NCBI GenBank assembly: GCA_937867175.1
Contig: CALMKG010000428.1
Span: 1-37,142, forward strand
Source of the DNA: an uncultured Propionibacterium sp.
GTDB taxonomy: Bacteria; Actinomycetota; Actinomycetes; Propionibacteriales; Propionibacteriaceae
Reading direction: 5' to 3'
DNA: 37,142 nucleotides
A program made the position numbers and the translations under genes. Positions 423 through 30,123 of this stretch are shown piece after piece; the stretch's first letter is position 1, and the number at the start of each line of letters is the position of its first letter. Below the pieces are notes generated by a model. It did not search any database. It was not told the origin of the DNA and saw only the letters and a list, made by a program, of their open reading frames with translations.

Positions 423-937
423 GCATGACTAGCAGAGCCGCGCCCTACCGCCGCGACGACCGCCAGACCATGCGCGTGCCCGTGGTGATGCCGCTCGTCG
501 AAGTCGACATCGACCACAAGGGCTACCTGGCAGTTGCGCTCGACCGCGAGCCCTACTCGGCCGACGGGTCGCTCACCCGCGATGACCTTAAGCCCCTGGT
601 CAGCGACATCGCGACCGACCTCCGCACGCCGATCCGAGTCGAGGTTCGGGAAGCCGATGACTCGAGCTTCATCGACATCGTCATGCCGAGACGACAGGCA
701 GCCGAGCCCGCGCCTCCTGCCGCCCGCGCCGCGCTGGCGTCTGCCTTCGGGATCTCGGGCGATGGCTTCTCTGCCGGCGAACAAGTGGAGGTGTGCGTTG
801 TCGTGGCTCGACAGGTCGCGGACGGCGACGGCACCGCCCAGCTTCGCTTGCCACCCGCGCTGCTCGCGGAGCACCCGCGGGTTTTCCTGGTCGGACGAAC
901 GTCGGGGGTTGTCGCCCTCAGCGAGGGAACGCCGTGA
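419..937 (+). CDS. Conserved hypothetical protein of the transfer operon
   Basis: This 172-residue protein starts at an ATG overlapping the previous stop (ATGA), and its own stop overlaps the next gene's GTG (GTGA). The three genes are therefore translationally coupled. I recognise no catalytic motif. The first half (about residues 18-95) is mixed alpha/beta with a PLVEVDIDHKGYLAVALD segment. A linker rich in Ala and Pro follows (about 97-108), then a compact C-terminal part. No signal peptide or membrane segment is visible. Position directly before a coupling ATPase suggests a role in conjugation or its control, but that is inference from context only. Confidence 0.65.
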   Translation: MSMTSRAAPYRRDDRQTMRVPVVMPLVEVDIDHKGYLAVALDREPYSADGSLTRDDLKPLVSDIATDLRTPIRVEVREADDSSFIDIVMPRRQAAEPAPPAARAALASAFGISGDGFSAGEQVEVCVVVARQVADGDGTAQLRLPPALLAEHPRVFLVGRTSGVVALSEGTP

Positions 938-2697: not shown

Positions 2698-2772
2698 CCC
2701 GGCCGATCCTGTCGGACCCCACTGGCATGGTGACTCCCGAAGCCCCGGACGCACGTAACCAGGAGAAGACAG

Positions 2773-3615: not shown

Positions 3616-3674
3616 CGAGCTTCCCGACTCCCGGCTCGAGGGCTCGATCGTCCCCGCGCCCACGGCACCATCCA

Positions 3675-3680
3675 TAGGAT
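3675..3680 (+). promoter_or_regulatory. -10 box TAGGAT, candidate leaderless promoter
   Basis: TAGGAT fits the actinobacterial TANNNT -10 pattern and ends 7 bases before the ATG at 3688. Transcription would then start on or next to that A and give a leaderless mRNA. No ribosome-binding site lies upstream of 3688, and no good -35 is visible. This suggests the DUF262 genes have their own promoter, separate from the transfer operon. Confidence 0.4.
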
Positions 3681-3687
3681 TGTGCCG

Positions 3688-5469
3688 ATGACCCACTACA
3701 CCCGTTCCGCCGAATTGATGAGGAAGCTCGTGATCAGCGACGAGCTGTCCGGCGAGTTCGTCATCCCGTCGTACCAGCGGGGCTATCGCTGGGGCGCAAC
3801 CGAGGTTGTGAAACTCCTGGACGACATCGACAACGATGTCATCGCTGCACCGATGCCGCGCAGCTACTACCTTCAGCCCATCGTCGTCACTTGGCGGGAG
3901 TCCTCGGGCAACTGGGAGTTAATCGACGGCCAGCAGCGCCTCACCACCCTCTATCTGATCGTCAGGTACCTGCGCGACAGCAACTGGCTTCCCCGGGCCA
4001 AGGTCAACTACTCCCTGACGTACGAGACTCGGGAGAACAGCCGCAAGTACCTAGACACTCTCGACCCAGCGCTGCGGCACGAGAACATCGACTTCCACTA
4101 CATCTACTCGGCCTACGAGGCGATCGAGAAGTGGTTCGAGGACCAACCGGACCCCGAGGGTGCAGCGATCAACGTCCGCAAGGCGTTGGCCGAGAGCGTC
4201 TACCTGATTTGGTACGAGGCACCCGAGGGCACTGACAACAACGAGCTGTTCAGGCGCCTGAATGTAGGGCGGATTCCGCTCACCGATGCCGAGCTGATCA
4301 AGGCCCTCGTCCTCTCCAAGATCGGCGCCGGCGGGAGTCGGTCAGAGCGCCAAGAGCAGGTGGCCGTGCAGTGGGACTACTTCGAGCGGGAGCTGCGTGA
4401 CCCTGAGCTTTGGGCCTTCATCACAGCATCGAGCAAGGAGTGGCCGACCCACATCGACCTCCTGTTCCGAGCAATGGCGGGAAGCACCGACGGCAAGGAG
4501 CAGCACCGATACTGGGTGTTCGAGGAGCTAAGGCCACGCATCGAGAACTCGGCTGCTGAGTTCTGGCGAGACGTCGTCCGGATGCACGGTCTCATTACAG
4601 GATGGTTCCACGACCGCACGCTGTACCACCTCATCGGCTTCCTCATCGCCACGGGAGGCCGGTATGAGTTCGAGCGCATCGTCGAGTTGGCGGAGGGCCG
4701 GACTAACAAGTCATTCCGGCAGGCGCTGGTGCAGCGCATCCGCAGCCGAGTCGGCGAATCCCGATCTGGACTCGATGCTCTCAACTACGAGGAGAACCGA
4801 GACGAGTGCCAAGACATCCTGCTTCTGATGAACGTCGCAACTGTTCTCGGCGCCGTTAACGAAAATCTGGTCGCCAGCGAGGACGGCGAGCGGTTCTCCT
4901 TCTATGCCCATGCCAGGAGCAGCTGGTCCGTGGAGCACATACACGCGCAGAATGCAGCACCCCTTACCCGGGCAAAGCAGTGGAGGACCTGGCTGGAGCT
5001 TCATCGCCGAGGCATCGACGCACTCCCAGGGCGCTCTCAGAAGGAGAACGCCGACTTGTTCAGCCGGATCGATTCACTAATCGAGTCCATCGACGCCCGC
5101 GAGGTGGGCATTGAGGCGAGGTTCAGGAAGTTGGAGAACGAGATCGTCGCCGCCTTCGCAGCAAGCGGCGATCCCGTGATCGGCGACGACGTTCACCTAC
5201 TCCCAAACCTTGCGCTTCTAGATCGAGGGCACAACAGCGCGCTAGGCAACTCTGTATTCGAGGTGAAGAGGCAGGAGATCCTTCGCCTTGATCGTGCGGG
5301 TTCCTACATCCCGCCGTGCACACGCAACGCCTTCCTCAAGTACTACACCGACGATGCCGACCAGCAGATCCACATGTGGGGACCGCAGGATCGGAAGGCG
5401 TACTACGACGTCATGCGCGACGTCCTCGCCCCCTACCTAGTGCCCGAGCCTGCGGAGGTTTCGTCGTGA
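3688..5469 (+). CDS. GmrSD-like DUF262-DUF1524 restriction protein
   Basis: This 593-residue protein matches the two-domain layout of type IV modification-dependent restriction nucleases of the GmrSD group. The N-terminal DUF262 (ParB/Srx-like NTPase) domain carries PSYQRGYRW at 27-35 and IDGQQRLTTLYL at 79-90, the hallmark motif. The C-terminal DUF1524 nuclease part shows EHIHAQN (416-422) and later NLALLDRGHNSALGN followed by F..KR, the usual HNH-like pattern. ATG 3688 is preferred over the GTG at 3682 because it sits at the expected start of a leaderless transcript. The stop overlaps the next gene (GTGA), so the two DUF262 proteins are made together. A defence role is known for the family and inferred here; which DNA modification it would read is unknown. 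Confidence 0.82.
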   Translation: MTHYTRSAELMRKLVISDELSGEFVIPSYQRGYRWGATEVVKLLDDIDNDVIAAPMPRSYYLQPIVVTWRESSGNWELIDGQQRLTTLYLIVRYLRDSNWLPRAKVNYSLTYETRENSRKYLDTLDPALRHENIDFHYIYSAYEAIEKWFEDQPDPEGAAINVRKALAESVYLIWYEAPEGTDNNELFRRLNVGRIPLTDAELIKALVLSKIGAGGSRSERQEQVAVQWDYFERELRDPELWAFITASSKEWPTHIDLLFRAMAGSTDGKEQHRYWVFEELRPRIENSAAEFWRDVVRMHGLITGWFHDRTLYHLIGFLIATGGRYEFERIVELAEGRTNKSFRQALVQRIRSRVGESRSGLDALNYEENRDECQDILLLMNVATVLGAVNENLVASEDGERFSFYAHARSSWSVEHIHAQNAAPLTRAKQWRTWLELHRRGIDALPGRSQKENADLFSRIDSLIESIDAREVGIEARFRKLENEIVAAFAASGDPVIGDDVHLLPNLALLDRGHNSALGNSVFEVKRQEILRLDRAGSYIPPCTRNAFLKYYTDDADQQIHMWGPQDRKAYYDVMRDVLAPYLVPEPAEVSS

Positions 5470-7754
5470 AAGGGTTCCCCACCACCTACTCCGGGATCTT
5501 CGACAGTGCCCCTGACGAGCGCCCGACCATCAGCAGCATCGAGATTCCCATCATCCAGCGCGACTACGCGCAGGGACGGGAGGACAGCGACACAGTCACG
5601 ATCCGCCGCGACTTCCTTGACGTACTCATCCGCGCTCTGACCACGGCGGACTCCGTGGGTCTGGACTTCATCTACGGTGAAGTTGCCGGGGGCGTTCTCA
5701 AGCCACTCGATGGCCAGCAGCGATTGACCACGCTGTTTCTCTTGCACTGGTACGTGGCTTCACGGGCCGGAACGCTGGACGCGAGTGCGCCGTGGAGCGA
5801 GTTCCGGTATGCCACCCGCCTTAGCGCCGAGTACTTCTGTCGCGAAATCGTTTCCCACACTTGGCCGGCGGACGACGCTGATCCGGTGGACTGGATCACC
5901 GACCAGCCCTGGTACCTATTCCCTTGGCGTACCGATCCCACCATCGAATCGATGCTGGTGATGATCGGTGCGATCCACGAACGTCTATCCAGCGGCGACC
6001 ACGACTTCGAGACGCTGTGGGAGCGTCTGACATCTCCAGATGACGCCGCGATCTCGTTCTTGTTCCTGCCAATCGACGACATGGAGTCAGGAGACGATCT
6101 CTACATCAAGATGAACTCGCGGGGGAAGCCCCTCACCGAGTTTGAGGTGTTCAAAGCGCGGCTGGAGCAGTTGCTCGCTAGCACCGGACCTCAGACAGAG
6201 CTCAGCGAGAAGCTGGACCGAGAGTGGTCGGACCTCCTGTGGCACTACGAGGGTGGGGACTCCCTCGTCGACGACGAGTTCATGCACTACTTCGCCTTTA
6301 TCGTCGACGTTTGCGAGTGGCGGACCGGATCGACCCGAACCCCAGACACACTGCTCCAACGTGCACAGCGGGTCTTTGTCGATCACGAGGACGCGCAGAC
6401 CCACCTTGGATTCTTGTTTTTCGCGTTCGACACCTGGGTCGGCGAGACGGCATCCAGCAACGTGCCCGCGGAAGTGCTCACCGATCTGTTTCGAGTGGAT
6501 GGCAACGCGGAGTCGGGGCTGCTGTTGTTCGAGTCGCAGGACCCGAATCTCTTCGCGGCCTGCCTCGAACACTACGGAACCAAGCAGTTCTCGCTCGCCG
6601 AAACGATTCTGCTGTTCGCCGTGATCATCTTCCGGCAAAAGTGTCCTGAAGGATCAAGAGAGGACCTCGGTCAACGGTTGCGGTCGCTGCGCAACATCGC
6701 GGAGTCCGCACCGGACGATGTCCGCAATGAGTACATGCCCGAACTGATCGCGTCAACGATCAGGTTGATGACCGCCCCACCCGACTCATACCTCGATGGG
6801 TTGAAGAGGTTCAACCAGGCTCGCATCGACGACGAGAAACTCAAGCGTGACCTGCTTTCGGCGCATCCCCAGCTGCAGGAATCGGTGCATGCGCTTGAGG
6901 ACCACGAGCTACTCAGGGGACGACTCTTCGCGTTCAACCTGGACGCCGCCACCATCGATGCGCGCGGCGAGACCTTCCGTGCCGTCACCTCAATCGACGC
7001 CCTGCCACGACTGGCCCCAGCCCTTCTCACCAAGGGCGACTACTCGCGATCCCTCGGCACCCGGAGACAGTTCGGCATGCCCGGGCAACGTCGCGGTGGC
7101 GGCTCGTGGAGAGACGTCCTCACGGGCGGATCACGAGACGGACGAGCAGCGCTGCGGGATGCCGCCGACCAACTCCTCGAAGATGTAGCGAGCCGCGACG
7201 AACCCGCAGTCGACGCCTTGGAAACAATCGTGAACGAGTGGCTAACGGAGCAGGAGGCGGCTTGCCGCTACGACTGGCGCCACTACTTCGTACGCTACCC
7301 GAGCATGCTGAGCGCACCGCAGGGGATCTATGTGGGCGAATACGACTCCGATGGAGTCGGGTACGGCTACCGGGTCGACATGCTCAAAGGCGGCGACTAC
7401 CGCGCAGCCTTCACCGACCCATACCTCCTCGCGGTGTGGGAGGAGCTTGGACAGCCTCAAGGGCTCACGAAGCCGGAGTTCCGTAGCTGGGACTACACGG
7501 GGACCGAGAAGACGATGAAGCTGTCGGCGTCCGGAACCGGCATTCGCAGCCGGGATGCAGGATTCGAGATCCTCCCGCCGGACGACGCAGCCCAAGTAGC
7601 CCTAGTCCACGCCGCCCTGGAGCCCTTAGGCATCGATAGCGACAACATCGTCCGCGTGAGCCCGAGGGACAGGCACTCCGAATCCCTGGATTCGGAGGAC
7701 CGCATACAGGTAGGCATCCAATTGACACAAGCGCTGCTCAAGGCCGGCCTGTAA
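5466..7754 (+). CDS. Large DUF262 protein, partner of the preceding gene
   Basis: This 762-residue protein starts at a GTG overlapping the upstream stop. DUF262 motifs are clear: IIQRDYAQGR at 29-38 and LDGQQRLTTLFL at 81-92. A second conserved block, KMNSRGKPLTEFEVFKARLE, follows at roughly 216-235. I see no DUF1524 HNH motif. The C-terminal 250 residues contain a Trp/Tyr-rich segment (RYDWRHYFVRYP, then GYGYRVDML) of unknown function. A nuclease-bearing DUF262 protein overlapping a larger nuclease-free one suggests a two-component complex with one NTPase/nuclease subunit and one sensor or regulatory subunit. The anti-phage role is inferred from the family and the mobile-element setting. Confidence 0.78.
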   Translation: MKGFPTTYSGIFDSAPDERPTISSIEIPIIQRDYAQGREDSDTVTIRRDFLDVLIRALTTADSVGLDFIYGEVAGGVLKPLDGQQRLTTLFLLHWYVASRAGTLDASAPWSEFRYATRLSAEYFCREIVSHTWPADDADPVDWITDQPWYLFPWRTDPTIESMLVMIGAIHERLSSGDHDFETLWERLTSPDDAAISFLFLPIDDMESGDDLYIKMNSRGKPLTEFEVFKARLEQLLASTGPQTELSEKLDREWSDLLWHYEGGDSLVDDEFMHYFAFIVDVCEWRTGSTRTPDTLLQRAQRVFVDHEDAQTHLGFLFFAFDTWVGETASSNVPAEVLTDLFRVDGNAESGLLLFESQDPNLFAACLEHYGTKQFSLAETILLFAVIIFRQKCPEGSREDLGQRLRSLRNIAESAPDDVRNEYMPELIASTIRLMTAPPDSYLDGLKRFNQARIDDEKLKRDLLSAHPQLQESVHALEDHELLRGRLFAFNLDAATIDARGETFRAVTSIDALPRLAPALLTKGDYSRSLGTRRQFGMPGQRRGGGSWRDVLTGGSRDGRAALRDAADQLLEDVASRDEPAVDALETIVNEWLTEQEAACRYDWRHYFVRYPSMLSAPQGIYVGEYDSDGVGYGYRVDMLKGGDYRAAFTDPYLLAVWEELGQPQGLTKPEFRSWDYTGTEKTMKLSASGTGIRSRDAGFEILPPDDAAQVALVHAALEPLGIDSDNIVRVSPRDRHSESLDSEDRIQVGIQLTQALLKAGL

Positions 7755-10645: not shown

Positions 10646-11074
10646 ATGCCCGAACGTCACATCATGGTGCAACGCCGCATGTCGGCGCCCACGAGCGCTG
10701 TCTGGGCCGTGGTCTCCGACTTCCCCGACCTCGCGAGCCACTGGAACGGTCTCCGGTCGACGAGGGCCCTCGGCGCCGCGTCGAGCTCAAGCCGATGGGC
10801 GCCAGGGACGAGACCGTCACCATCTGGGAGAACGGTCACCGGATCGGGACGGAGAACCAGCCCAAACACTTTGGTGCCGTTCCCGCACGTCGAGTCCACG
10901 CTCACGCTCGAGTCCGACGGCGACGGCACCCTGGGCCTCTTCGACTACCGGTACGTGCCCCGTGGCGGGCCCCTCGGCCACCTGACGGGGCCACTGATCG
11001 ACAAGAGGCTGACCGCGACGTTCGCCGACATGCTGGCCGCCACGGAGGAGGCTGCGCTCGGCCGCAGCCGGTAG
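10646..11074 (+). pseudogene. SRPBCC-family protein gene with two frameshifts
   Basis: The N-terminal part (VQRRMSAPTSAVWAVVSDFPDLASHWNG) and C-terminal part (LTLESDGDGT, DYRYVPRGGPLG, LTATFADMLAATEEAA) are in one frame and match a polyketide-cyclase/SRPBCC lipid-binding protein. The middle (VELKPMGARDETVTIWENG, RIGTENQPK) lies in another frame. The joins fall near 10765 and near 10862, the latter at an AAA run that looks one base too long. Restoring both would give a continuous protein of about 143 residues. The gene is decayed or mis-sequenced. It lies among other broken genes. Confidence 0.6.
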
Positions 11075-11191
11075 CCCGCTGCGGCGGCGGGGGTCCTCCC
11101 CCACCGCGGGATTGTCGGGCGATGGCGCCTCGCGTCAGGTGCGCCGAGGACGAACGTGGAGGTCCCGGGGGGCTCACCGAGAGGAGACGTC

Positions 11192-11545
11192 ATGTCCGAG
11201 AAGCAGAACATCGACACGCCGCACGAAGGGGGCCCGTTCCGGGACCACGGGCACATGGAGGTGATCGCCCTGGGCGGCTTCACCGTGGGAAGGGTGTCTT
11301 CGAGCCAGCATGGCGATGGTCCACCGACGTGCAGCCGATCGCCGGGACGAGCTCGTGCCAGGTCCACCACACGGGGATCTGCCTGTCCGGACGGATGACC
11401 GTCAGGTCCGACGACGGCGAGGAGATCACCATCGGCCCCTGCGACGTCGCCGACCTCGACCCCGTGCCACGACGCGTGGACCGAGGGCGACGAGCCCAGT
11501 GTGCTCATCGACGCCGGCGTGGTGGCGTACGCCAAGCCCAGCTGA
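11192..11545 (+). pseudogene. Cupin-domain protein gene with two frameshifts
   Basis: The gene starts at ATG 11192 behind GAGGAG with MSEKQNIDTPHEGGPFRDHG. It then shifts near 11295, where a G run appears one base short, into VFEPAWRWSTDVQPIAG, CQVHHTGICLSGRM and DGEEITIGP. It shifts again near 11466 into DAWTEGDEPSVLIDAGVV and ends at TGA 11543-11545. The HHTG...G pattern and GEEITIGP are typical of small single-domain cupins. The intact form would be about 117 residues. As written it cannot make a full protein. Confidence 0.6.
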
Positions 11546-11561
11546 GGATGCCGCCAGGGGC

Positions 11562-12272
11562 TCAGGTGAGGTGCCACCCGCGGTTCACGACGAGGCTCGT
11601 TCCCGACATCCCACGATTGCGCAGCAGGAACTGAGTCGCATCGACGATGTCGGCCATGGTGGCGAGCTCGCCGCCGGGCGTTCGTGACGTGTACGCGTCC
11701 AGCACCCCTTCCGGCTTGGCGGCCCAGAAGGGGCTGTTGCCGATGATGCCGGGATGCAACGAGTTCACCCGGATGGGAGCAAGCTCCAACGCAAGTGTGC
11801 GGGCCATTCCATCGACCCCGGCGTTGATGGTCGAGACCGTGGTCGAACCCGGATACGGCAGGTCCTTCGCCCCGCCACCGAACAGGACGATGCCCGTGTC
11901 CACCGTCGGCTCCAACCGATCCAGGAGTGCATGCACCGTCTCGGTGTAGCCGACGAGCTTGAGAACAGTCAGTCGCGTCGCTCGCGGGACGCTGTAGTCA
12001 CGCGCGCTGTTCGCGTCGCGCTCGATGGCGCTGAGCACGAGGCCGTGGACTGGACCGTCGATGGCGGAGAGGGACGCGGTTATCGTCTCGGGCTCGGAGA
12101 TGTCCAGCGCGATGCCCCTGGCAGAGTCACCCAGCGACGAGGCCACTCGGGTGGTTCGCTCCCGGTGACGGCCCGTGATGATCGCCGTGTCGCCGCTGGC
12201 CACGATGTCTCTCGCGAGCTCCAAACCGATTCCTGACGTCCCCCCGACGACGACAACGGTCCTGCCTGCCAC
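11562..12272 (-). CDS. Atypical short-chain dehydrogenase/reductase-like protein
   Basis: This 236-residue Rossmann protein has the nucleotide-binding GGTSGIG at 10-16 and the SDR tail ALELAPIRVNSLHPG. The usual catalytic YxxxK is absent: the lysine position is Asn150 (TVSTINAGVDG) and the tyrosine position is Val146. It belongs to, or resembles, the atypical SDRs with Asn in place of Lys, whose chemistry is uncertain. GTG 12272 is chosen because AGGAGG lies 6 bases upstream; the frame extends nine codons further without a good site. It is last in the seven-gene minus-strand operon, 84 bases after the reductase gene. It may act on a late carbonyl or alcohol intermediate, but oxidoreductase activity is unproven. 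Confidence 0.78.
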   Translation of the reverse strand: MAGRTVVVVGGTSGIGLELARDIVASGDTAIITGRHRERTTRVASSLGDSARGIALDISEPETITASLSAIDGPVHGLVLSAIERDANSARDYSVPRATRLTVLKLVGYTETVHALLDRLEPTVDTGIVLFGGGAKDLPYPGSTTVSTINAGVDGMARTLALELAPIRVNSLHPGIIGNSPFWAAKPEGVLDAYTSRTPGGELATMADIVDATQFLLRNRGMSGTSLVVNRGWHLT

Positions 12273-12356
12273 AATTTCCTCCTGGGTTGATGGCACCACC
12301 CGGGATTCCGGGATGGCGAAGTCGAGTGGGTCGATCGCCTCGGGCGGCCGATGCAG

Positions 12357-13220
12357 TTACAGCAGGCCGCGACGCGACACCTCGGCGATGCCACTCCAGT
12401 CGGACTCGGCCAGCTCGGGATCCTGCAGCGCACGCTCGAAGACCTTGAACAGCGCCGGCATGGTGGCAGGACTCACGTGGCCTGCATCCGCAACTTCGCG
12501 AGCCAGGACGAGATCCTTGTGACCCAGGCTCATCTTGAATGCTGGGGTGTAGTCCTTCGCCGCGATCGCCGCGCCGTACGTCTCGTACACGACGCCGCCG
12601 AAGAGACTGCTCGTCAGCAGCTCGACGAAGAGATCCGCGTCGACGCCGTGCCGCTCGACCATGGAGATGCTTTCGCCAAGGGCCTGCAGGGCGTGGATGA
12701 TGTTGTAGTTCACCGCGATCTTGACGACGCTGGCCATGGGCGCGCTGTCCCCGAGCCGCCAGATGCGTTTGCCCAGCTGCGTCAAGTACGGCGTGACCGC
12801 CTCGACGAGGTCGAGAGGGCCGGCCGTCAGGATGTTCAGCTGACCCGAAGCAGCCACCTCGGGACGACCGAGCACCGGGGCTGACACGTAGCCGGCACCA
12901 TGGTGAGCGTACAGAGTCGCCAACCTCTCCGTGGCCGCTGCGCTGATCGACGCCGTGTTGACATGGATTCGACCCGCTGCAGCTCGACCGGCGCCGCCGA
13001 GGACCGTCTCCGCTGCCTGGTCGTCGGCGAGCATGCTGAATGACACGGCTGGCGCCAGTGCCTCCTCGGGCGTCTTCGCGCGGGTGGCGCCGGCGGCAAC
13101 GAGCTCGTCAACGGGACCCACTGATCGGTTCCACGCCACGACGTCATGGCCGCTGTCCAGCAGCCGTCTCGCCATCGCCATGCCCATGGAGCCCAGGCCG
13201 AGGAACCCGAGGGTGCTCAC
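12357..13220 (-). CDS. 3-hydroxyisobutyrate-dehydrogenase-family NAD(P) oxidoreductase
   Basis: This 287-residue beta-hydroxyacid dehydrogenase-family protein has the N-terminal dinucleotide motif GFLGLGSMGMAMARRLL (5-21). The conserved interdomain Lys lies in SVVKIAVNYN, the active-site position of this family. Such enzymes interconvert beta-hydroxyacids and semialdehydes (3-hydroxyisobutyrate, tartronate, 3-hydroxypropionate, 4-hydroxybutyrate types) or reduce imines. GTG 13220 overlaps the upstream M24 stop (GTGA), so the two are translationally coupled. In the operon it would handle a semialdehyde or imine released by ring opening. The exact substrate cannot be told from sequence, and an imine-reductase role is an alternative. 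Confidence 0.82.
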   Translation of the reverse strand: MSTLGFLGLGSMGMAMARRLLDSGHDVVAWNRSVGPVDELVAAGATRAKTPEEALAPAVSFSMLADDQAAETVLGGAGRAAAGRIHVNTASISAAATERLATLYAHHGAGYVSAPVLGRPEVAASGQLNILTAGPLDLVEAVTPYLTQLGKRIWRLGDSAPMASVVKIAVNYNIIHALQALGESISMVERHGVDADLFVELLTSSLFGGVVYETYGAAIAAKDYTPAFKMSLGHKDLVLAREVADAGHVSPATMPALFKVFERALQDPELAESDWSGIAEVSRRGLL

Positions 13221-14599
13221 CCCTCACCACGTCCAGATGCCGTGTTGAGATGGGACTGGCTGTCACGGTTGAGGTTGAGCGGGCCGTCGACGGTGAAGTA
13301 TTGACGGCCGGCGACGATGAGTTCTTCAGCGGGGAACTTCGTGATCACTTCACAGCCGTCCGCAGTGACCACCACCTCCTCCTCGATCCGGGCCGCGCCC
13401 CAACCGTCGGCCGACGGCCAGTACGTCTCCAGCGCGAAGACCATGCCCTCCTCCAGGACCTCCGGATGATCGAGGGACGTGAGCCGGGAGAAGATCGGCT
13501 TCTCCCAAATCGAAAGCCCGAGGCCGTGTCCGTACTGAAGGGCGAATGCATCCATCTCGTTCGCAAATCCGAACTCGTGGGCCTCGGGCCACAGCCGCAC
13601 GATGTCTGCCGTCGTCGCGCCAGGCCTCACTGCCGCGATCGCACGGTCGATGTACTCGCGGGCACGCGTGTAGGCGTCCCGCTGCTTGCTCGATGCGGAG
13701 CCCACCGCAAACGTGCGGTAGTAGCAGGTGCGATATCCGTTCCAGCTGTGCAGGATGTCGAAGAACGCTGGATCCCCGGGCCGGATCAACCGGTCGGAGA
13801 ACACGTGAGGGTGTGGGGCACACCGTTCGCCGGAGATCGCGTTGACACCCTCGACGTACTCCGACCCGAAGTCGTAGAGCGTCTTGGCGACAAGGCCCAC
13901 GGCCTCGTTCTCCCGCACGCCGGGCCTCAGGAAGCGGTACAGCTCCTCGTAAGCCGCGTCGACCATCGAGGCGGCCTGGGTGAGCAACCGGATCTCATCA
14001 GACGTCTTGATCCGGCGCGCATCCATGAACACCTGCTGACCGTCGACGACGTCGATACCTTCCTTCTGCAGTGCAAACAGCACGGGCAGCTCGATCACAT
14101 CCACACCGAGCGGTTCATCGGCCAGGCCGAACTTCTCGAGTTCGCGCTTGATCTTCTTCGCGAGGTCGGTCGCCATCTCGGCGTCGGGAGGGAACGCGCC
14201 ACGCAGCGTCGATATCCCCGCGCGCGCCCCAGACTCAAGACGTGGGCGTTTCACACCCTCATGAGGTGCGTGAGGGTTGGCGTCCATCTCCGATGACGTC
14301 ACATCCAGCCACGGGTTGTAGAGCGCATGATGCTTCGCTGCTGACCCGAAGTCCCACACGACCGGGTCGGTGTTGCGTGTCAGCAGCGCAAAGCGGATGA
14401 GCTTGTCCATCGCCCAGGTGCCGATGTGGGTTGCGCTCATATAGCGGATGTTCGAGAAGTCGAAGGCCAGGACCGCGCCCAGCTCAGATGCCTCGAGCTG
14501 GTACTTCAGTCGTGCGAGTCGTTCGTCGCGCAGTTTGTCGAAGTCGACGCGCTCCTCCCAGTCGACGGCGTTGGTTCCTGACGTGCCTGTGTTCTTCAC
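13217..14599 (-). CDS. M24-family (creatinase/prolidase-fold) hydrolase with altered metal site
   Basis: This 460-residue protein has an N-terminal creatinase-type domain (about 20-185) and a C-terminal pita-bread domain. Expected metal and substrate residues are seen as Asp281 (FFDI), His358 (YGHGLGL), Glu391 (ALETYW) and Glu406 (ARIEEE), plus His265 in PHPHVFSDR. The second metal Asp of the family, 11 residues after the first, is Cys292 in GYRTCYYRTF. The family includes C-N hydrolases such as creatinase, ectoine hydrolase (DoeA) and the DMSP lyase DddP, not only peptidases. In this operon a ring-opening or amide-hydrolysing role is more likely than peptide turnover. GTG 14599 follows GGGGAG at 4 bases. 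Confidence 0.8.
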   Translation of the reverse strand: MKNTGTSGTNAVDWEERVDFDKLRDERLARLKYQLEASELGAVLAFDFSNIRYMSATHIGTWAMDKLIRFALLTRNTDPVVWDFGSAAKHHALYNPWLDVTSSEMDANPHAPHEGVKRPRLESGARAGISTLRGAFPPDAEMATDLAKKIKRELEKFGLADEPLGVDVIELPVLFALQKEGIDVVDGQQVFMDARRIKTSDEIRLLTQAASMVDAAYEELYRFLRPGVRENEAVGLVAKTLYDFGSEYVEGVNAISGERCAPHPHVFSDRLIRPGDPAFFDILHSWNGYRTCYYRTFAVGSASSKQRDAYTRAREYIDRAIAAVRPGATTADIVRLWPEAHEFGFANEMDAFALQYGHGLGLSIWEKPIFSRLTSLDHPEVLEEGMVFALETYWPSADGWGAARIEEEVVVTADGCEVITKFPAEELIVAGRQYFTVDGPLNLNRDSQSHLNTASGRGEG

Positions 14600-15760: not shown

Positions 15761-16966
15761 TCACACCAGCGGCGTGACGGGGTTGCTCTCCTCGCCGGTG
15801 GCAAGCCACCTGCCGTAGACCTCGAGCCCCGTGTCCGGGAGCGTGAGGCCGTGCCGAGCGGCGGTCGCCTGGTCGCGCCAGAAACGCTGCAGGACGCTGG
15901 ACTCCGCAAATCCGGCCGAGCCGTGTGCGGTCATCAAGGCGTCCACGGCGCTCCTCACGTTCGACACGACCTGCGCCTGTTGGCCGCGTTGGCGCGCGCG
16001 TGCCGCATAGTCGAGGTAGGTGCCGTTCCGGGCTGCGTCATCGATCTCGTCGGCCGCGCGATAGGCAAACAGCTCGGCTGCATCCAGCAGAAGAGCGGCC
16101 CTTGCGAGCTCCAGCTGGAAGGGGATCGAGTCGCTCTGACGCCGATAGGTCGTGTAGGCGATGCTCTTGGTCGGCGCTGCGGCACGGACGAGATCCAGGA
16201 CAGCGTCGCCCATTCCCAGGTGAGCCCCCAGCAGCTGGGCCTCCAGCTCCGGGATGAACGCCGTCCGGTAGGTGTCGTCGTCACCCTGTCCGACGACTCC
16301 GGGGTAGTCGCCGCGCAGGGCTGGACCAACGCGCAGCACTCGATGTTCGGGCACGAGGATGTCGTTGGCGACGAAGCTGTTGCTGCCGGTCGACTTCAGG
16401 CCCGCGACATGCCAGGTGTCCTTGTACTCCAGGTCCTGCCGCGGAGCGAGCACGATCGCGTTGTCCTCGAACCGGCCGGCATCGTCGTGGAGGGGGGCGC
16501 CGAGGATCGCCCAGGAGGAGTGCCAGGACCCGGAGTTGTACCGCCATTCCCCGCTCATCCGGTAGCCACCACCCTCGACAGCGCTCGCCTTCGATGACGG
16601 CGCGAGCATGATCGAGACGTGGGTGTCCGGCCCGCTCCCGAAGACTTCCTCCTGTGCCTCGTGCGGGAACCACCCGACGACATACGCGCCTGAGTTGAGC
16701 AGCCCTGTCACCCATCCCGCACCGCCGTCGGCGCGCGCGACGGCCCGGGCAACATCGATCTGCTCACGCGTGGTTGCGGCAAGCCCGCCGAATCGCCGGG
16801 GGACTCCGGTTCGGAACACGCCAGCCGCGCGCAGCGCCTCGATCGTCGGCTCGTCGAGATGACGATTGGTCTCGTTTCCGGCGGCGCGATGGCGGATCAG
16901 CGGCGTGATCTCCTCGATGCGGCCAAGCACTCCCGCGATGTCCGGCACCAGGGCCTGTTCAGTCAT
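15761..16966 (-). CDS. Acyl-CoA-dehydrogenase-fold flavin monooxygenase, copy 1
   Basis: This 401-residue protein has the acyl-CoA dehydrogenase fold in the version used by group D flavin monooxygenases (HsaA, DszC, isobutylamine N-hydroxylase and pyridine monooxygenase are of this type). Recognisable blocks are RRFGGLAATTREQIDVARAVARADG (abridged: FGG, ARADGG), SGEWRYNSGSWHSSWAILGA, the GLKSTGSNSF loop and a C-terminal helix bundle ending PVTPLV. It lacks the catalytic-base context of true acyl-CoA dehydrogenases, and a flavin reductase gene follows within 50 bases. ATG 16966 is preferred because GAGGAG is 5 bases upstream; GTG 16972 is too near that site. Oxygenation of an N- or C-position of the imported compound is inferred. 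Confidence 0.82.
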   Translation of the reverse strand: MTEQALVPDIAGVLGRIEEITPLIRHRAAGNETNRHLDEPTIEALRAAGVFRTGVPRRFGGLAATTREQIDVARAVARADGGAGWVTGLLNSGAYVVGWFPHEAQEEVFGSGPDTHVSIMLAPSSKASAVEGGGYRMSGEWRYNSGSWHSSWAILGAPLHDDAGRFEDNAIVLAPRQDLEYKDTWHVAGLKSTGSNSFVANDILVPEHRVLRVGPALRGDYPGVVGQGDDDTYRTAFIPELEAQLLGAHLGMGDAVLDLVRAAAPTKSIAYTTYRRQSDSIPFQLELARAALLLDAAELFAYRAADEIDDAARNGTYLDYAARARQRGQQAQVVSNVRSAVDALMTAHGSAGFAESSVLQRFWRDQATAARHGLTLPDTGLEVYGRWLATGEESNPVTPLV

Positions 16967-17049
16967 CGTCACTCCTCAGTGCCGTTCACAGCTCGGATCG
17001 GTACGCCCGTCGCGGCCGGCCGGACCGACCGGTCGCGACAGGCCGCACC

Positions 17050-18246
17050 TCAGACCAGCGGGGTGACGGTGTCGCCGTCCTCGCGTCCGAGAAGCGCCTT
17101 TCCGTAGAGCTCGTAGCCCAGCGCGGGAAGGACAAACGCATGCCTGGCTGCGACCGCCTGGTCACGCCACAACCGCTGCAGCGGGTTGACCTCGGCGAAG
17201 GACCCCGAGCCATGCGCCGTAAGGAGCATCTCGATCGCTCGCGACACGTGCTCGACAATCCATCCCACGTACGCACGGTTTCGTGCCCTGGTGAGGTAGT
17301 CGGGATACGCCCCGAGCTCGGCGGGCCGATCGATCTCGTCAGTCGCCCTTAAAGCGAACGCGTCGGCAGCATCGAGCAGCAGGGCGGCCTTGGCGATGTC
17401 GAGCTGGAAGGCGACCGAGTCGCTCTGGTGCGCGAAGTTGGTATAGGCGATGCCCTTGTCGGCCTTGGCGATGACTCGATCCAGGACGGCCCGTCCAATA
17501 CCCAGCTGGGGCCCCACGAGGATGATGTTGAGCACGGGAATCCAACCGGCGCGATACACGCTTGGCGTGTCGTCGTCCGTGCCTGGGTAGCTGCCTAGCA
17601 GTGCGGGCTGCCCCGGCATGACCCGGTGGTCTGGAACGAAGACGTCCTTGGCGTACAACGTGTTGCTGCCGCTGGAACGCATCCCGGCGACGTACCACGT
17701 GTCCTTGAACTCGAGCTCGCTCCGGGGGATCAACAGCTGCGCGGTGTCCACGAAGTTGCCGTCCTCGTCCACCAGCTCAGCGCCGAGGATCGCCCACGAG
17801 GAGTGCCACGACGCGGAGTTGTAACCCCATTCGCCGCTCACGCGGTATCCGCCCTCGACACGAGTCGTCTTGCCGTTGGTGGCCAGCACCACCGAGACCT
17901 TCGCGTCGGGGTCGTCCCCCCAGACGTCGTCCTGGGCGCGCTCGGGGTACAGCGACGTGAGCCAGTTCGCGATGTTGGTGAGGGCGACGACCCATGCCGT
18001 CCCTCCGTCGGCGCGCCCCACAGCAGCCCCCACATCGATCTGGGCGCGTGAGTTGCCTTGGTACCCGCCGTACTTCGCGGGCTGCGTCACCCGGAAGGCA
18101 CCGATCGCCTCCAACGCATCGATGGACTCCTGGACAACGCGCCGATCCGTCTCGCTCTGGGCCGCATTCCTCTCCAGCAGCGGACGCAGCTCGTCGATGC
18201 TCTTGAGCAGGCTTGGGATGTCGGGCGGGAGATTGCTGTCGACCAT
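17050..18246 (-). CDS. Acyl-CoA-dehydrogenase-fold flavin monooxygenase, copy 2
   Basis: This 398-residue paralogue of the next gene in the operon shares SGEWGYNSASWHSSWAILGA, VAGMRSSGSN, QSDSVAFQL, LLLDAADAFA, LTAHGSGSFAE, QRLWRDQAVAARH and the same VTPLV tail. It is the first gene of the minus-strand operon, behind the divergent control region. ATG 18246 follows AAAGG at 8 bases; an ATG seven codons earlier has a poorer site. The two copies may form a hetero-oligomer, act on successive intermediates, or have different substrate ranges. Sequence shows conservation through the core of both, so neither looks decayed. Confidence 0.82.
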   Translation of the reverse strand: MVDSNLPPDIPSLLKSIDELRPLLERNAAQSETDRRVVQESIDALEAIGAFRVTQPAKYGGYQGNSRAQIDVGAAVGRADGGTAWVVALTNIANWLTSLYPERAQDDVWGDDPDAKVSVVLATNGKTTRVEGGYRVSGEWGYNSASWHSSWAILGAELVDEDGNFVDTAQLLIPRSELEFKDTWYVAGMRSSGSNTLYAKDVFVPDHRVMPGQPALLGSYPGTDDDTPSVYRAGWIPVLNIILVGPQLGIGRAVLDRVIAKADKGIAYTNFAHQSDSVAFQLDIAKAALLLDAADAFALRATDEIDRPAELGAYPDYLTRARNRAYVGWIVEHVSRAIEMLLTAHGSGSFAEVNPLQRLWRDQAVAARHAFVLPALGYELYGKALLGREDGDTVTPLV

Positions 18247-18324
18247 GGGACGGGCCTTTCTCTGCATGTCGCTCTCGTGGGTCAGCTACCGCGGTCTGTA
18301 CGGGATCGACCCGGGCAGGACGCG

Positions 18325-18354
18325 ACAGTATCGAATGTCGTATGCGAAACGCAA
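18325..18354 (-). promoter_or_regulatory. Candidate promoter of the monooxygenase operon
   Basis: On the minus strand TTGCGT (18354-18349) and TACTGT (18330-18325) are separated by 18 bases, an acceptable -35/-10 pair for actinobacteria. It lies about 80 bases upstream of the first monooxygenase start. The palindrome at 18333-18364 covers the -35 and spacer, as expected for a repressor site. Confidence 0.35.
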
Positions 18355-18364
18355 TAATACATTC
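18333..18364. promoter_or_regulatory. Inverted repeat, candidate GntR operator between divergent operons
   Basis: Outer arms GAATGT (18333-18338) and ACATTC (18359-18364) enclose a perfect inner palindrome TGCG-AAA-CGCA (18343-18353). It sits between the monooxygenase operon and the GntR gene and would be well placed to control both directions. The left part, GAATGTCGTATGCGA, recurs in pieces at the transporter promoter. Binding by the adjacent GntR protein is inference. Confidence 0.5.
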
Positions 18365-18476
18365 AGAGTCTGTCGTCGCCTGGCGCTCCGAGTCGACGCC
18401 GACACATCGGATACCGTGTGTGAACAGGGTGGCCCTGCGGCCACGCACGATCGAGGCAGCGAAAGGCGGCAGACCG

Positions 18477-19151
18477 GTGAAGGTCGCACGCATCGAGCGA
18501 GATCCCAGCGCCCTCACGTCGGAGGTGCGCGGCAAGATCATCGACGCCATGATGGCCGGCGACCTGCTGCCTGGGGATCGGTTGATCCTCGACAAGCTCG
18601 CCGACCAGCTCGGAGTGAGTCGCACACCTGTTCGCGATGCGCTGCTGCGCCTGGTCGCGGAGGGGATCGTCGAGCCCGCGGACAAGAGAGGGTACGTGTT
18701 CCGTCAGTTGACCGACATCGAGGTCGAACACAACCTCGAGTCGCGCCTGGCGATCGAGTCCTACGCCGCGGAGATGCTGGCCAGGAAGGGTGGCGCGGCG
18801 ATCCGCTCGGTCAGGGACTCACTGGAGGAGGCTCATCGAACGCCGAAGAACACGATGCGCGCCTATTTCGACGCCAACATGCAGGTGCACCGTGCGATTG
18901 TCGCGGCCACCGAGAACCCCCAGCTCCTCAGCTTCTTCGACACAATCTGGGGCCAGGCAGCGTCCAACCAGATCTACGGCCAGTACTTCCAGACGACGGC
19001 CGACGAAGCGTTCTTCCAGGACCATCTCCGACTCATCGACACCATCGCGCTCGGGCAGCCCGACAACGCGCGCGCTGCCATGGTCGAGCACATCTGCAGC
19101 GGCCAGGAGTTGTCCCGTCGCGTCCGGATGGAGCTTAACGTTCCCACTTGA
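18477..19151 (+). CDS. GntR-family (FCD/FadR-type) transcriptional regulator
   Basis: This 224-residue regulator has an N-terminal winged helix (about 12-75) with LADQLGVSRTPVRDALLRLVAEGIV, here cited by its core GVSRTPVRDAL, which is the classic GntR recognition helix. A C-terminal FCD ligand domain follows, with Asp and His residues in YFDANMQVHRAI and His in FQDHLRL and MVEHICSG as likely metal ligands. FCD regulators commonly sense carboxylates or amino-acid-like molecules and repress adjacent catabolic genes. GTG 18477 gives the usual family length; GTG 18420 and 18429 are in-frame alternatives. It is divergent from the monooxygenase operon and precedes the ligase and amidase genes. Confidence 0.85.
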   Translation: MKVARIERDPSALTSEVRGKIIDAMMAGDLLPGDRLILDKLADQLGVSRTPVRDALLRLVAEGIVEPADKRGYVFRQLTDIEVEHNLESRLAIESYAAEMLARKGGAAIRSVRDSLEEAHRTPKNTMRAYFDANMQVHRAIVAATENPQLLSFFDTIWGQAASNQIYGQYFQTTADEAFFQDHLRLIDTIALGQPDNARAAMVEHICSGQELSRRVRMELNVPT

Positions 19152-19155
19152 AGTG

Positions 19156-19170
19156 TTCAGTGTCACTGAA
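19156..19170. promoter_or_regulatory. Perfect palindrome TTCAGTG-T-CACTGAA
   Basis: A perfect 7-base-arm palindrome with a single central base starts 4 bases after the GntR stop and lies about 58 bases before the leader ORF. Its AGTGTCACT core and location suggest an operator for the ligase-amidase genes or a short hairpin. It differs from the TATGCGA-type palindromes elsewhere in the island, so it may bind another regulator. Confidence 0.4.
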
Positions 19171-19227
19171 TATGCTCTCTCGTGTAGTGGGTCGCCGGGA
19201 CTTTGACCGAGGGCTGAGGGAGTCGAC

Positions 19228-19284
19228 ATGAAGCACATCTGTAACGCGCCGCCGCCCCAGCGCAGATCTCGGCGCGACTCTTGA
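19228..19284 (+). CDS. 18-residue leader peptide ORF coupled to the ligase gene
   Basis: An ORF with the sequence MKHICNAPPPQRRSRRDS starts at ATG 19228, 5 bases after a GAGGGAG ribosome site. It ends in TGA at 19282-19284, and the last base of that stop is the first base of the ligase ATG (TGATG). The ligase itself has no visible ribosome site, so its translation probably depends on ribosomes finishing the leader. The Pro-Pro-Pro run and the Arg-rich end are features that can stall ribosomes. This ORF is too short for routine gene finding. It may control expression by translational coupling or attenuation, but no alternative RNA folds were tested. Confidence 0.5.
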   Translation: MKHICNAPPPQRRSRRDS

Positions 19285-20708
19285 TGCTCCAGCGGGACGA
19301 CTGGGGATCGATCTTCGCCCGATTGCGCTCGGAGAACATTCGCCGCGTTCGCGTGGTGTGGGCGGACCAGCACGGTGTCAGTCGCACAAGGGTGGTGGCG
19401 ACGAGGGCGTTCCCGAAGATCTGCGCCGAGGGACTGCGCTGCAACCTGGGCACGCTCCTCAGCGACTCCTCGGGGAAGATGACCATGGACCCGTTCGCCC
19501 CCGGCCGGGTGCTCAACAGCTCCGACCTGGCAGGAGCACCCGACATCCTGCTTCGGCCCGACCCGTCCACGTTCCGCGTGCTGCCCTGGGCTCCACAGAC
19601 GGCATGGATCATCGCCGACGTGTTCACCACGGCGGGAAAACCTCTACCATTCTCACCACGAGCGCAGCTTCGTGCTGCCGCCGACCTGGCCTCGGGGAGC
19701 GACATTCGACCGGTGATCGGGATCGAGCTCGAGTTCCACCTGCTGAAGGTTGCCGACCTCGCTCGAACCGGGTCGGTCGAGTCTATCGATGCGCAGGCGG
19801 TGCGCCCCACACACTCGGCGTACCAACACCAGTCGGAGGCCGCCCTCGACAACGTGAGCGAGTTCCTGGACGTCTTGCAGGACCATCTCGAGGAGCTCGG
19901 CCTGCCCGTCCGTACCCTTGAAGTCGAGCACGGCCCATCTCAGTTCGAGATCAGTCTGGACGTGTTGGGCGCCCTGGAGGGCGCGGACGCCGCTTTCGTG
20001 GTGAAGAACGCGGCGAAGATGATCGCGCGGCGACACGGCTATCACATCACGTTCATGCCTCGACCGGCGATCCGCGGCTTCGACTCCTCGGGATGGCATC
20101 TACATCTGTCGATCACCGACGAGCTCGGCCAGAACCTGTTCGTGCCGAAGGACGACCTGGAGCTGCTGTCGCCCTACGGTCGCCACTTCGTCGGCGGCAT
20201 CCTCAGGCACGCGCGCGAAGCAGCGTTGTTGGCCATCCCCACCGTCACGGGATTCAAGCGTCTGCAGCCGCGCTCACTCGCCCCCGACAGAGTCACCTGG
20301 GGCGCCGACAATCGAGGTGCGATGATCCGCGTCACGGGTGACCGCAGTCTCGGGTCGACACACATCGAGAACCGGATCGGCGACACCGCCGCGAACGGCT
20401 ATCTCTACATCGCCAGTCAGATCTTGACCGGCCTTGACGGCGTCTCGATGGCCGAGGAACCACCTCCGGCGACGGACACCCCCTACGAGGATGACGTCAC
20501 TCGATTGCCGACCAGCCTGCCCGAGGCGATCAGCGAGTTCGAGAACAGTGAGCTCTTCCTGAAGACCATGGGCGAGGACTTCGTCGCCTTCTACGCCGCG
20601 CACAAGCGCAGCGAAGCCGAGCGGTTCGCCGCTTCCGAGCTCGGCCGCACCGATGAACCGCACGCGGTCAGCACATGGGAACAGCTCGAGTACTTCGATC
20701 TGTACTGA
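19284..20708 (+). CDS. Glutamine-synthetase-family ligase (gamma-glutamylamide synthetase type)
   Basis: This 474-residue protein has the two GS parts: an N-terminal beta-grasp (VRVVWADQHGVSRTRVVATRAF, residues about 22-43) and a catalytic domain with GIELEF (146-151), EHGPSQFEIS (215-224) and SSGWHLHLS (268-276). These are the metal-binding Glu and His blocks. It is not a housekeeping GS: the beta-grasp lacks the GS pattern and no adenylylation-site context is apparent. Relatives such as PuuA, IpuC and the gamma-glutamylanilide synthases add glutamate to amines for degradation. Its pairing with an amidase and importer suggests ATP-dependent glutamylation of an amine. The ATG at 19284 overlaps the leader stop; a TTG at 19281 is less likely. 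Confidence 0.8.
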   Translation: MLQRDDWGSIFARLRSENIRRVRVVWADQHGVSRTRVVATRAFPKICAEGLRCNLGTLLSDSSGKMTMDPFAPGRVLNSSDLAGAPDILLRPDPSTFRVLPWAPQTAWIIADVFTTAGKPLPFSPRAQLRAAADLASGSDIRPVIGIELEFHLLKVADLARTGSVESIDAQAVRPTHSAYQHQSEAALDNVSEFLDVLQDHLEELGLPVRTLEVEHGPSQFEISLDVLGALEGADAAFVVKNAAKMIARRHGYHITFMPRPAIRGFDSSGWHLHLSITDELGQNLFVPKDDLELLSPYGRHFVGGILRHAREAALLAIPTVTGFKRLQPRSLAPDRVTWGADNRGAMIRVTGDRSLGSTHIENRIGDTAANGYLYIASQILTGLDGVSMAEEPPPATDTPYEDDVTRLPTSLPEAISEFENSELFLKTMGEDFVAFYAAHKRSEAERFAASELGRTDEPHAVSTWEQLEYFDLY

Positions 20709-20745
20709 GGGCATCTGCCCCCACCGACGCCTGAGGACGTGACGA

Positions 20746-22215
20746 ATGAACCCATCGGACTACGCGTGGATGTCGGCTGTCGAGCTCATCGAGGCACTCC
20801 GGTCCCGGCAGCTGTCTCCGGTCGAGCTCGTCGAGGCCGCGATCGCTCGCATCGAGGAGCAGAACCCGGCCATCAATGCCGTGGTCCACCTCGGCGCCGA
20901 CGATGCACGGGCCGCAGCACGTGCTGCGGAGCACTCCTTGGCGGACGGGACAGCGGGTCCCTTGACAGGTGTCCCGGTTCTCATGAAGGACCTGTTCGAC
21001 TTCAAGCCCGGTTGGCCATCCACCCTCGGAGGCGTACGCGCCCTTGCCGGCAACATCGCCCAGCACAGCTGCCTCTTCGTGGAACGCATGGAATCCGCAG
21101 GCGCAATCGTTCTCGGCAAGACGAACTCTCCCGTGTTCGGTGCCCGCGGCATCACCGACAATCCGCTGTTCGGACCGACGCGCAACCCGTTCGACGTGAC
21201 CCGCAATCCCGGTGGCTCCTCTGGTGGCGCAGCCGCCGCCGTTGCTGCTGGCTTCGTTCCCATCGCGGAAGGCACCGACGCCGGCGGGTCCATCCGCATA
21301 CCCGCCGCCTGGACCTCGACGTACGGATTCAAGCCGAGCGCTGGGCGCGTTCCCTCCATCGTCCGACCGCTCGGATTCCTGAACTCAGCCCCGTTCATCA
21401 CCGAAGGGCCGATCACCCGCACGGTGGCGGACGCCGCGCTGGCAATGAGCACGCTGGCTGGTCCCGACCCCCGCGCGCCTCACTGCCTGGACGGCAACCT
21501 CGACTATGGCGCCGCCTTGGAGCGCTCGGTTGCGGGACGCCGCGTCGGCTACTCGCCCGAGCTCGGAGCGTTCACCGTCGAGGCCGAGGTGGCACGTGCG
21601 GTCGATCACGCCGTGACCGGCTTCGAGGAGTGCGGTGCCCATGTGGAGCTGGTGGAGCTGTCGCTGCCCGCCGATCACGCGGAGCTCGCGGCCCTGTGGC
21701 ACCGGTCGATGATGCAGATCAGCTTGGCATCCCTGGAGGCCATGCAGGCGCAAGGGATCGACCTGCTCACAGACCTCGCCGCACACTTTCCACCCAGCCT
21801 GACAGAACAGATCGAGCAGGCCCGCAGCATGAGCGCCCGCCAGCTCAGGAACGACGATGCGCTCCGGACCGAGGTCTATGACGCCTTGACGCCGGCGGTC
21901 AACGCCTTCGACCTCCTGGTGAGCCCGACGGTGGGTGCCCTTCCAGTCCTCAACGCCGATGATGGGGACACGATCGGCCCCTCGCAGATCAACGGGCAGG
22001 CCGTCGACCCGCTGATCGGCTGGACTCTCACCTTCCCGCTCAACTTCACCGGCAATCCCGCGGCGTCGATCCCAGCCGGACTTGTCAACGGCCTGCCGCT
22101 CGGGATGCAGCTCATCGGACGACAGATGCGGGACCTGGACGTCCTGACGTTCAGCGCCGCCTACGAGCGCGCAAGACCGTGGGCGGCGGACTACCGCCTC
22201 ACCGAAAACGACTGA
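20746..22215 (+). CDS. Amidase-signature-family amidase
   Basis: This 489-residue protein has the complete Ser-cisSer-Lys machinery of the amidase signature family. Lys81 is in VLMKDLFDF, the glycine/serine-rich signature NPGGSSGG is at 154-161, and the nucleophile Ser182 is in GTDAGGSIRIPA. Length is normal. Members hydrolyse linear or aryl amides to acid and ammonia or amine. It is placed 37 bases after the ligase gene, with GAGG nine bases upstream of its ATG. It could cleave the imported amide, or release a product from a glutamylated or ring-opened intermediate. It shows no signal peptide, so it should be cytoplasmic. Confidence 0.88.
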   Translation: MNPSDYAWMSAVELIEALRSRQLSPVELVEAAIARIEEQNPAINAVVHLGADDARAAARAAEHSLADGTAGPLTGVPVLMKDLFDFKPGWPSTLGGVRALAGNIAQHSCLFVERMESAGAIVLGKTNSPVFGARGITDNPLFGPTRNPFDVTRNPGGSSGGAAAAVAAGFVPIAEGTDAGGSIRIPAAWTSTYGFKPSAGRVPSIVRPLGFLNSAPFITEGPITRTVADAALAMSTLAGPDPRAPHCLDGNLDYGAALERSVAGRRVGYSPELGAFTVEAEVARAVDHAVTGFEECGAHVELVELSLPADHAELAALWHRSMMQISLASLEAMQAQGIDLLTDLAAHFPPSLTEQIEQARSMSARQLRNDDALRTEVYDALTPAVNAFDLLVSPTVGALPVLNADDGDTIGPSQINGQAVDPLIGWTLTFPLNFTGNPAASIPAGLVNGLPLGMQLIGRQMRDLDVLTFSAAYERARPWAADYRLTEND

Positions 22216-29394: not shown

Positions 29395-30123
29395 CTACTC
29401 GGCGAAGATCTCGGGATGTCGCGCGAGCTCGACGCGCGTACGCCGGATGTGGCGGTGCAGCACGTCCTCGGCCTCATCTGCGTCCTGGCGTCGGAGCGCA
29501 TCGACCAGAAGATGGTGGTCGAGGTGAACCGCTGTGTCTGCACCGTCCACACGGGCAACGCGCATGAAGGCCCGGCGGTAGTGATGGGTTCGATTCCAGA
29601 GTCGGATTACTGTCTCGCGCAGGACCACTGTCTCCGCTGCCGCATAGGTGGTCAGGTGAAAGGCACGGTCCAAGGCCAGGAACTCCTCAGCGTCGGCCGC
29701 TTCCTCCATCCGCGCGGCCAGCTCGTCGAGCGCCCCCACGGTCCCTGGCGTCAGCAGCGGCACGTTCATGCGCAGCAGCAGGGGCTCGATCCGCTCGCGA
29801 ACGCGGTAAAGCTCCTCACCCTCAGCGCGGCTGAGCTGCGACACCCAGGCACCTGCGTTGGCGACGCGCGTGATCAGCCCTTCGCCTTCGAGCATGCGGA
29901 GGGCCTCACGGACAGGTGCTCGACTGGCGGCGTAGCGCTCGGCCAGGTCTTCTTGTCGGATCCTGGTTCCTGGTGGATAGGCACCTTCCAGGATCGAGTC
30001 ACGCACTCCATCTGCGATTCGCGCCCCTGCAGCGCCGTGACCCGAATGGGTCGGGGTGCCAACGCCATCCAGGCGGCCCTGTGTGATGTCCGGTTCCATG
30101 TCGATCACCTTGCCCGAAGCCAC
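29395..30123 (-). CDS. GntR-family (FCD-type) transcriptional regulator, second copy
   Basis: This 242-residue regulator has the winged-helix core YAASRAPVREALRMLEGEGLI and the FCD domain with LDRAFHLTTYA and LDHHLLVDAL supplying likely metal ligands. It is not a close copy of the first GntR. GTG 30123 follows AGGA by 5 bases; ATG 30099 is an alternative and would remove eight residues. It sits between the VOC and ALDH genes and faces the E1-E2 genes, so it likely controls this third module, perhaps through the inverted repeat at 30786-30810. Confidence 0.85.
   Translation of the reverse strand: MASGKVIDMEPDITQGRLDGVGTPTHSGHGAAGARIADGVRDSILEGAYPPGTRIRQEDLAERYAASRAPVREALRMLEGEGLITRVANAGAWVSQLSRAEGEELYRVRERIEPLLLRMNVPLLTPGTVGALDELAARMEEAADAEEFLALDRAFHLTTYAAAETVVLRETVIRLWNRTHHYRRAFMRVARVDGADTAVHLDHHLLVDALRRQDADEAEDVLHRHIRRTRVELARHPEIFAE

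Follow-up and report, generated by a model that had tools for sequence, protein, structure and literature searches.

A short open reading frame overlapping the start of a GoaS-like ligase gene in an uncultured Propionibacterium

How is translation of a predicted amine ligase started when its start codon has no ribosome site of its own and lies on the stop codon of an 18-codon open reading frame (ORF)? The locus belongs to an uncultured Propionibacterium sp. (assembly GCA_937867175.1, contig CALMKG010000428.1), and the whole 37,142-nucleotide stretch analysed here is called the window. A first-pass annotation had described the short frame as a leader that ties synthesis of the ligase to ribosome passage. 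We find that coupling is the part of this claim that stands best: in our best-supported reading, held with a little more than even confidence, the short frame is an upstream ORF (uORF) from which ribosomes reach the ligase by termination-reinitiation. A regulatory or sensing peptide, by contrast, is without support. The locus holds either a real coupled short ORF, probably functional and of a documented kind, or a broken ligase start.

The short frame and the ligase start

19216..19222, plus strand: Shine-Dalgarno (SD) sequence of the short frame, GAGGGAG, 5 bases before ATG 19228 (upstream-region duplex -8.7 kcal/mol)
19228..19284, plus strand: short ORF of 18 codons, start ATG 19228-19230, stop TGA 19282-19284, peptide MKHICNAPPPQRRSRRDS
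19284..20708, plus strand: ligase of 474 amino acids, glutamine-synthetase fold, GoaS-like (gamma-glutamyl organic amide synthetase; Pfam PF00120, 1.9e-75)

The short ORF, its SD, the overlap, and the absence of any other SD-bearing ligase start are seen directly. The stop of the short frame runs into ligase ATG 19284-19286 and forms TGATG at 19282-19286, just as the first-pass annotation had reported. Predicted pairing with the 16S tail amounts to -8.7 kcal/mol for the short frame vs -1.7 kcal/mol for the ligase start, which agrees with the earlier statement that the ligase has no ribosome site of its own, and TTG 19281 is the only other start codon that is open in the ligase frame upstream of ATG 19284. 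The ribosome site of the short frame had been called strong. It does exist, but the word is generous, i.e. the amidase (20746, -10.3) and permease (25088, -11.9) sites of the same cluster pair more strongly, and the site is therefore fair rather than strong. Three features of a coupled uORF are found here: an overlap of stop and start, an initiation signal belonging to the short frame (SD and ATG), and no independent ribosome site downstream. Where a gene has no SD and an SD-bearing short frame ends on its start codon, termination-reinitiation is the simplest explanation. A leaderless ligase mRNA is unlikely, because the 18 bases leading up to ATG 19284 contain no TANNNT box.

The region upstream of the short frame contains the following features.

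18414..19151, plus strand: GntR/FCD-family regulator upstream of the ligase (Pfam GntR 9e-15, FCD 5.4e-19); start codon uncertain, helix-turn-helix begins at about 18516
19148..19176, plus strand: candidate promoter TTGAAG-17-TATGCT, 8 of 12 consensus positions; its -35 element overlaps the stop of the GntR gene
19156..19170, no strand: perfect palindrome TTCAGTG-T-CACTGAA in the spacer of the candidate promoter, a candidate operator of the GntR/FCD regulator

If the promoter is real, the short frame provides the first start site on the mRNA. Transcription would begin at about 19183, just below the candidate promoter, which the neighbouring GntR/FCD protein would probably repress by binding the palindrome. 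A ribosome would bind the SD at 19216-19222, read the 18 codons, and terminate at the TGA; the same ribosome would then re-initiate at the overlapping ATG 19284 and make the ligase. The sequence of the peptide is probably irrelevant, and the short frame would act as a ribosome-loading device. Under a relaxed promoter rule, which was fixed after the site had been seen, the candidate at 19148-19176 is one of 4 sites in the whole window on both strands. A stricter promoter scan did not find it. The window holds 6 perfect 7-1-7 palindromes, and no second copy of TTCAGTG-T-CACTGAA was found in it at up to 3 mismatches.

Chance, sensing and published precedents

Given this arrangement, we wondered how often it arises by chance. 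Among 3234 ATG triplets (any frame, both strands; the window and the readable contigs of its own draft genome, G000), 26 are overlapped by TGATG or ATGA with a small ORF (sORF) that starts with ATG or GTG, spans 6-40 codons, and has an SD at least as good. This number drops to 11 if the sORF starts with ATG and to 6 if the overlap is additionally TGATG. When the 132 upstream bases are shuffled 20,000 times, the rate is 0.4% for sORFs starting with ATG or GTG and 0.15% for those starting with ATG. The chance of such an sORF at one named start is 0.15-0.8%, and about 0.1-0.2 cases are expected over the window, counted on the 26 genes of a crude gene model that omits at least two genes with Pfam hits. 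The arrangement is unlikely at one named gene and, for the whole window, not astonishing.

These figures bear on the idea that the short frame is not usefully translated and that synthesis of the ligase begins at ATG 19284 (or TTG 19281) with no SD, an explanation we regard as improbable. The expected number of sORFs over the window genes speaks for it, as do the lack of conservation and the fact that SD-weak starts are common among them (14 of 95 relatives, i.e. those of 101 loci with a scoreable start at 34-75 codons). It does not account for the finding that the short frame has the only good ribosome site between the presumed transcription start and the ligase, nor for a stop located exactly on the ligase start.

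The Pro-Pro-Pro and Arg-rich tail noted in the first-pass annotation are both present (RRSRR, with four Arg among the last eight codons), and they are what would suit a sensing leader, in which attenuation, or arrest at either element, switches the ligase according to a metabolite or the state of translation. We consider this very improbable. Specifically, 18300-19400 holds no terminator-like site, Rfam has no match anywhere in the window, the folds (z-scores +0.7 to +1.9) are no better than those of shuffles, and the 22-residue frame containing the peptide has no NCBIfam match. Moreover, when every synonymous spelling is allowed, the first eight codons are found in 1 of 194 family genomes, the one to which the window belongs, and a search of plasmids with the DNA of 19140-19300 gave no match. 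Sensing of proline or arginine is without support. Attenuation and riboswitch control were rejected on the missing terminator-like site and Rfam family and the weak folds. For attenuation, the leader moreover overlaps the gene and leaves no room for hairpins between the two. An 8-base-pair helix that could sequester the SD exists (GGGAGUCG/CGACUCUU) and was also rejected, as 670 of 5000 shuffles match it and so do 868 of 6000 random pairs.

Coupling through a short uORF was presented in the first-pass annotation as an unfamiliar control layer. Such coupling is, however, already published for actinobacteria (PMC4633059; PMC11260477) and reviewed, with ribosome delivery by a short upstream ORF named as a proposed function (PMC12548453). 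The control layer is thus a known one, irrespective of any description for this enzyme family. In mycobacteria, small ORFs coupled in this way are over-represented, and conservation of their peptides is not required (Shell et al. 2015, PMC4633059); the short frame resembles these in the proposed ribosome delivery and in a peptide that, in the example shown there, is not conserved. The over-representation concerns ORFs on leaderless transcripts with RTGA overlaps, whereas the short frame has an SD, a presumed 5' untranslated region of ~45 bases, and TGATG. A closer likeness is seen with PPE2 of M. tuberculosis, which has no SD and depends on uPPE2, mostly through termination-reinitiation (PMC11260477; 2024). 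Both cases combine an SD-less downstream gene, an SD-bearing uORF, and an overlap of stop and start, but uPPE2 lies behind a B12 riboswitch and overlaps by AUGA, while the window has TGATG and no riboswitch found with Rfam. Overlaps of the TGATG and ATGA types are common across many prokaryote genomes (PMC6728339); the overlap type of these termination-reinitiation pairs is identical to ours, but they are pairs of genes, and here the first partner has 18 codons. In one literature search on glutamine synthetases with a uORF, coupling, or a leader, titles and abstract openings revealed no such case for the enzyme family, which is weak evidence of absence.

Relatives and a possible split gene start

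Conservation of the leader upstream of related ligases had been proposed as a check. The outcome is negative but weak, given that 8 of 95 relatives have an SD-bearing sORF over the ligase start and that these relatives are at most ~43% identical. Specifically, for the ligase in genomes, at least 197 family-level matches (E up to 0.001), 394 class matches (E up to 1e-60), and 391 order and 396 phylum matches (E up to 1e-100) reach 43% at best apart from the window itself, in sets that partly overlap and with E limits that short fragments would fall under. An alignment scan of genome contigs has none above 43% in the best 80 of at least 578 relatives, and a pattern scan of genome contigs matched 17 stretches, none of which encodes a ligase relative. 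In plasmids, the ligase search gave 55 records, all under 60%, the best of the 40 listed being 41.8%. Pieces of 18400-20740 have a DNA match in 12 of 57 related genomes, one of which is G000 itself, and the best other match is 68% over 381 bases. A 24-base start pattern had no match in viral_contigs.

Several observations weigh against the coupled-uORF reading. The 8 relatives with an SD-bearing sORF compare with 4.45 expected from shuffles (93 relatives with enough upstream sequence), and the TGATG-type overlap is seen in 1 relative vs 0.55 expected. One of the 8 (L119) shows a false coupled short frame that comes from a repeated start region around N (about 2800-3020), and none of the 8 short peptides resembles that of the window by eye. 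A missing SD alone proves little, since the 14 relatives mentioned above have a weak SD too. In codon use, 1 of 54 strong-SD gene starts scores as low as codons 2-18 of the short frame or lower, and the whole frame ranks at 2.7% of coding stretches. Poor codon use weighs little for a peptide with no function, yet it better suits a frameshift at the start of the ligase.

Such a break is a serious rival that the first-pass annotation had not considered. According to this explanation, which we see as possible but the less probable of the two, the short frame is in truth the beginning of the ligase gene, cut off by the gain or loss of a single base between about 19243 and 19262. The change may be an assembly error in the draft genome or a real mutation, and ATG 19228 then is the start of the ligase, or was so recently. 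The signal behind it comes from the following codons.

19245..19283, plus strand: codons in the ligase frame ahead of its ATG, RAAAPAQISARLL; their codon use resembles that of coding sequence

A composite of six leader codons and then the ligase frame has a log-odds score of +5.4, like average coding sequence (40th percentile). Among 4771 non-coding stretches 2.3% score as high, and among 4699 shuffled ones 2.6%. The leader frame alone scores -4.7, and its second half is non-coding-like in codon use. Equally coding-like in-frame codons precede 2 of 38 other strong-SD starts. The position of the start points the same way: the DQHG motif follows ATG 19228 at a distance of 45.7 codon lengths and ATG 19284 at 27, and the chosen ligase start is 38-53 codons before DQHG in 77 of 88 relatives (those of 93 loci that had a start). 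Starts less than 30 codons before DQHG are seen in L098 (18), L086 (22), and L109 (27), two of which are miscalls with the usual N-terminal segment upstream, so that only L109 looks truly short. In a separate alignment of relatives, the start positions of six rows were assigned by eye.

Frame breaks do exist in the contigs of the draft genome. Among 49 orthologues (39.8 kb aligned), we find 2 candidate pairs, each corresponding to a relative in G039 that is split over two frames. One abuts exactly (L227, G000:C437, about 1364-1769), and the other is ambiguous and possibly represents two genes (L230, G000:C440, about 10673-13236). This survey covered the 40 G000 contigs less nine that are mostly N (L137, L143, L145, L148, L149, L213, L214, L223, and L228). 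In one study, frame transitions in one genome only are regarded as likely indels or sequencing errors, and about a third of some transition classes are counted as false positives or gene overlaps (PMC3711429).

What the split should have left behind is, however, not seen. A strict N-terminal motif, F[IVAT]xx[HFYN]x[LIW], occurs in 86 of the 97 relatives with a DQHG-type anchor (0.1 expected from shuffles), and its loose form in 90 of 97 vs 5.7 in shuffles. By eye, the other 11 mostly have a variant of the motif, and L109 has none. The motif is absent from all three frames of the window, and the window ligase (19284-19370) is without the F[IV]xxHGLW-type segment that the strict form represents. 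Against a profile built from 89 of the 93 relatives' N-termini, the ligase scores 57.6 bits from ATG 19284, and adding any upstream frame or composite gives at most 57.1 bits (300 shuffles: median 57.2, maximum 62.6 bits). At 2.5-5 frame breaks per 100 kb, the prior for one in these 57 bases is about 0.2%, and a split gene would make the exact TGATG overlap a coincidence.

L109, which comes from a betaproteobacterial draft genome (41% identity) and is among the six loci dropped from the 95, also starts short and coupled. It has no N-terminal segment, and its starts precede DQHG by just 27 and 21 codons. An upstream ORF in another frame ends on the nearer of these, an ATG, through an ATGA overlap (region about 400-720), although this upstream partner is longer than 18 codons, unlike the short frame of the window. 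A short start reached by coupling is thus possible in this ligase family, as judged from this one sequence, which raises the odds for coupling and lowers those for a split gene. Because no frame encodes the N-terminal motif of relatives and L109 is short and coupled, the split gene stays second to the coupled uORF.

The two explanations may also be joined. It is conceivable, though unlikely, that the leader was born from the N-terminus of the ligase, i.e. that a real mutation broke the frame, that the old start and ribosome site were kept as a uORF, and that re-initiation at TGATG makes a shortened yet complete enzyme. If true, the locus would be a snapshot of a coupled leader ORF in the making, and would add a new layer of control to a GoaS-type ligase. 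If the coupled short ORF is real, a catabolic amine ligase joins the genes whose translation is set in this manner, with a hint that such leaders may come from split gene starts. If the frame break lies in the assembly, the case is one for caution, as a coupled leader is hard to tell from a broken N-terminus; codon use and the position of the start codon in relatives should be checked before a leader is claimed.

The ligase and its surroundings

The earlier label of a glutamylation-type ligase fits the protein. Its closest solved structure is 8wwu (NpaA1; 9.4e-109, 40% identity), and the next chain, a glutamine synthetase, follows at 5.9e-45. The AF2 model from ATG 19284 has a pLDDT of 89, a TM of 0.95 to 8wwu chain C, and a complete glutamine-synthetase fold with the first helix from residue 4, and Foldseek ranks 1-13 are all NpaA1 chains, i.e. 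chains of a glutamyl organic amide synthetase. Five NCBIfam models match (putrescine ligase and glutamine synthetases), every one below cut-off. With a glutamine-synthetase domain and GoaS as the closest match, the sequence predicts a divergent glutamyl organic amide synthetase. The same fold is seen in NpaA1, from Pseudomonas sp. JS3066 (PMC11335346); relatives have the F[IV]xxHGLW-type N-terminal segment, which the window ligase does not. The extra loop of the GoaS N-terminal domain, or "15th motif", corresponds to V68-M81 of NpaA1 (PMC11335346), and the matching ligase segment aligns to it without gaps and with few identical residues. The word "leader" is absent from the text of the same paper.

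Downstream of the ligase, the next gene has its own SD.

20746..22215, plus strand: amidase (Pfam Amidase 1e-95; SD pairing -10.3)

Past the amidase lie genes for a periplasmic binding protein and an ABC transporter. On the other strand, two tandem acyl-CoA dehydrogenase-fold genes (15761-18267, minus strand) are divergent from the GntR gene, and the first of these resembles the flavin monooxygenase HsaA, below the NCBIfam cut-off. A second GntR/FCD regulator (29395-30123, minus strand) adjoins glyoxalase and aldehyde dehydrogenase genes. The left end of the window encodes a TraG/TraD-type coupling protein (793-2694) and two GmrSD-type restriction-family proteins (3682-5466 and 5316-7751), and these genes (793-7754) point to a mobile or plasmid-like stretch next to the catabolic cluster.
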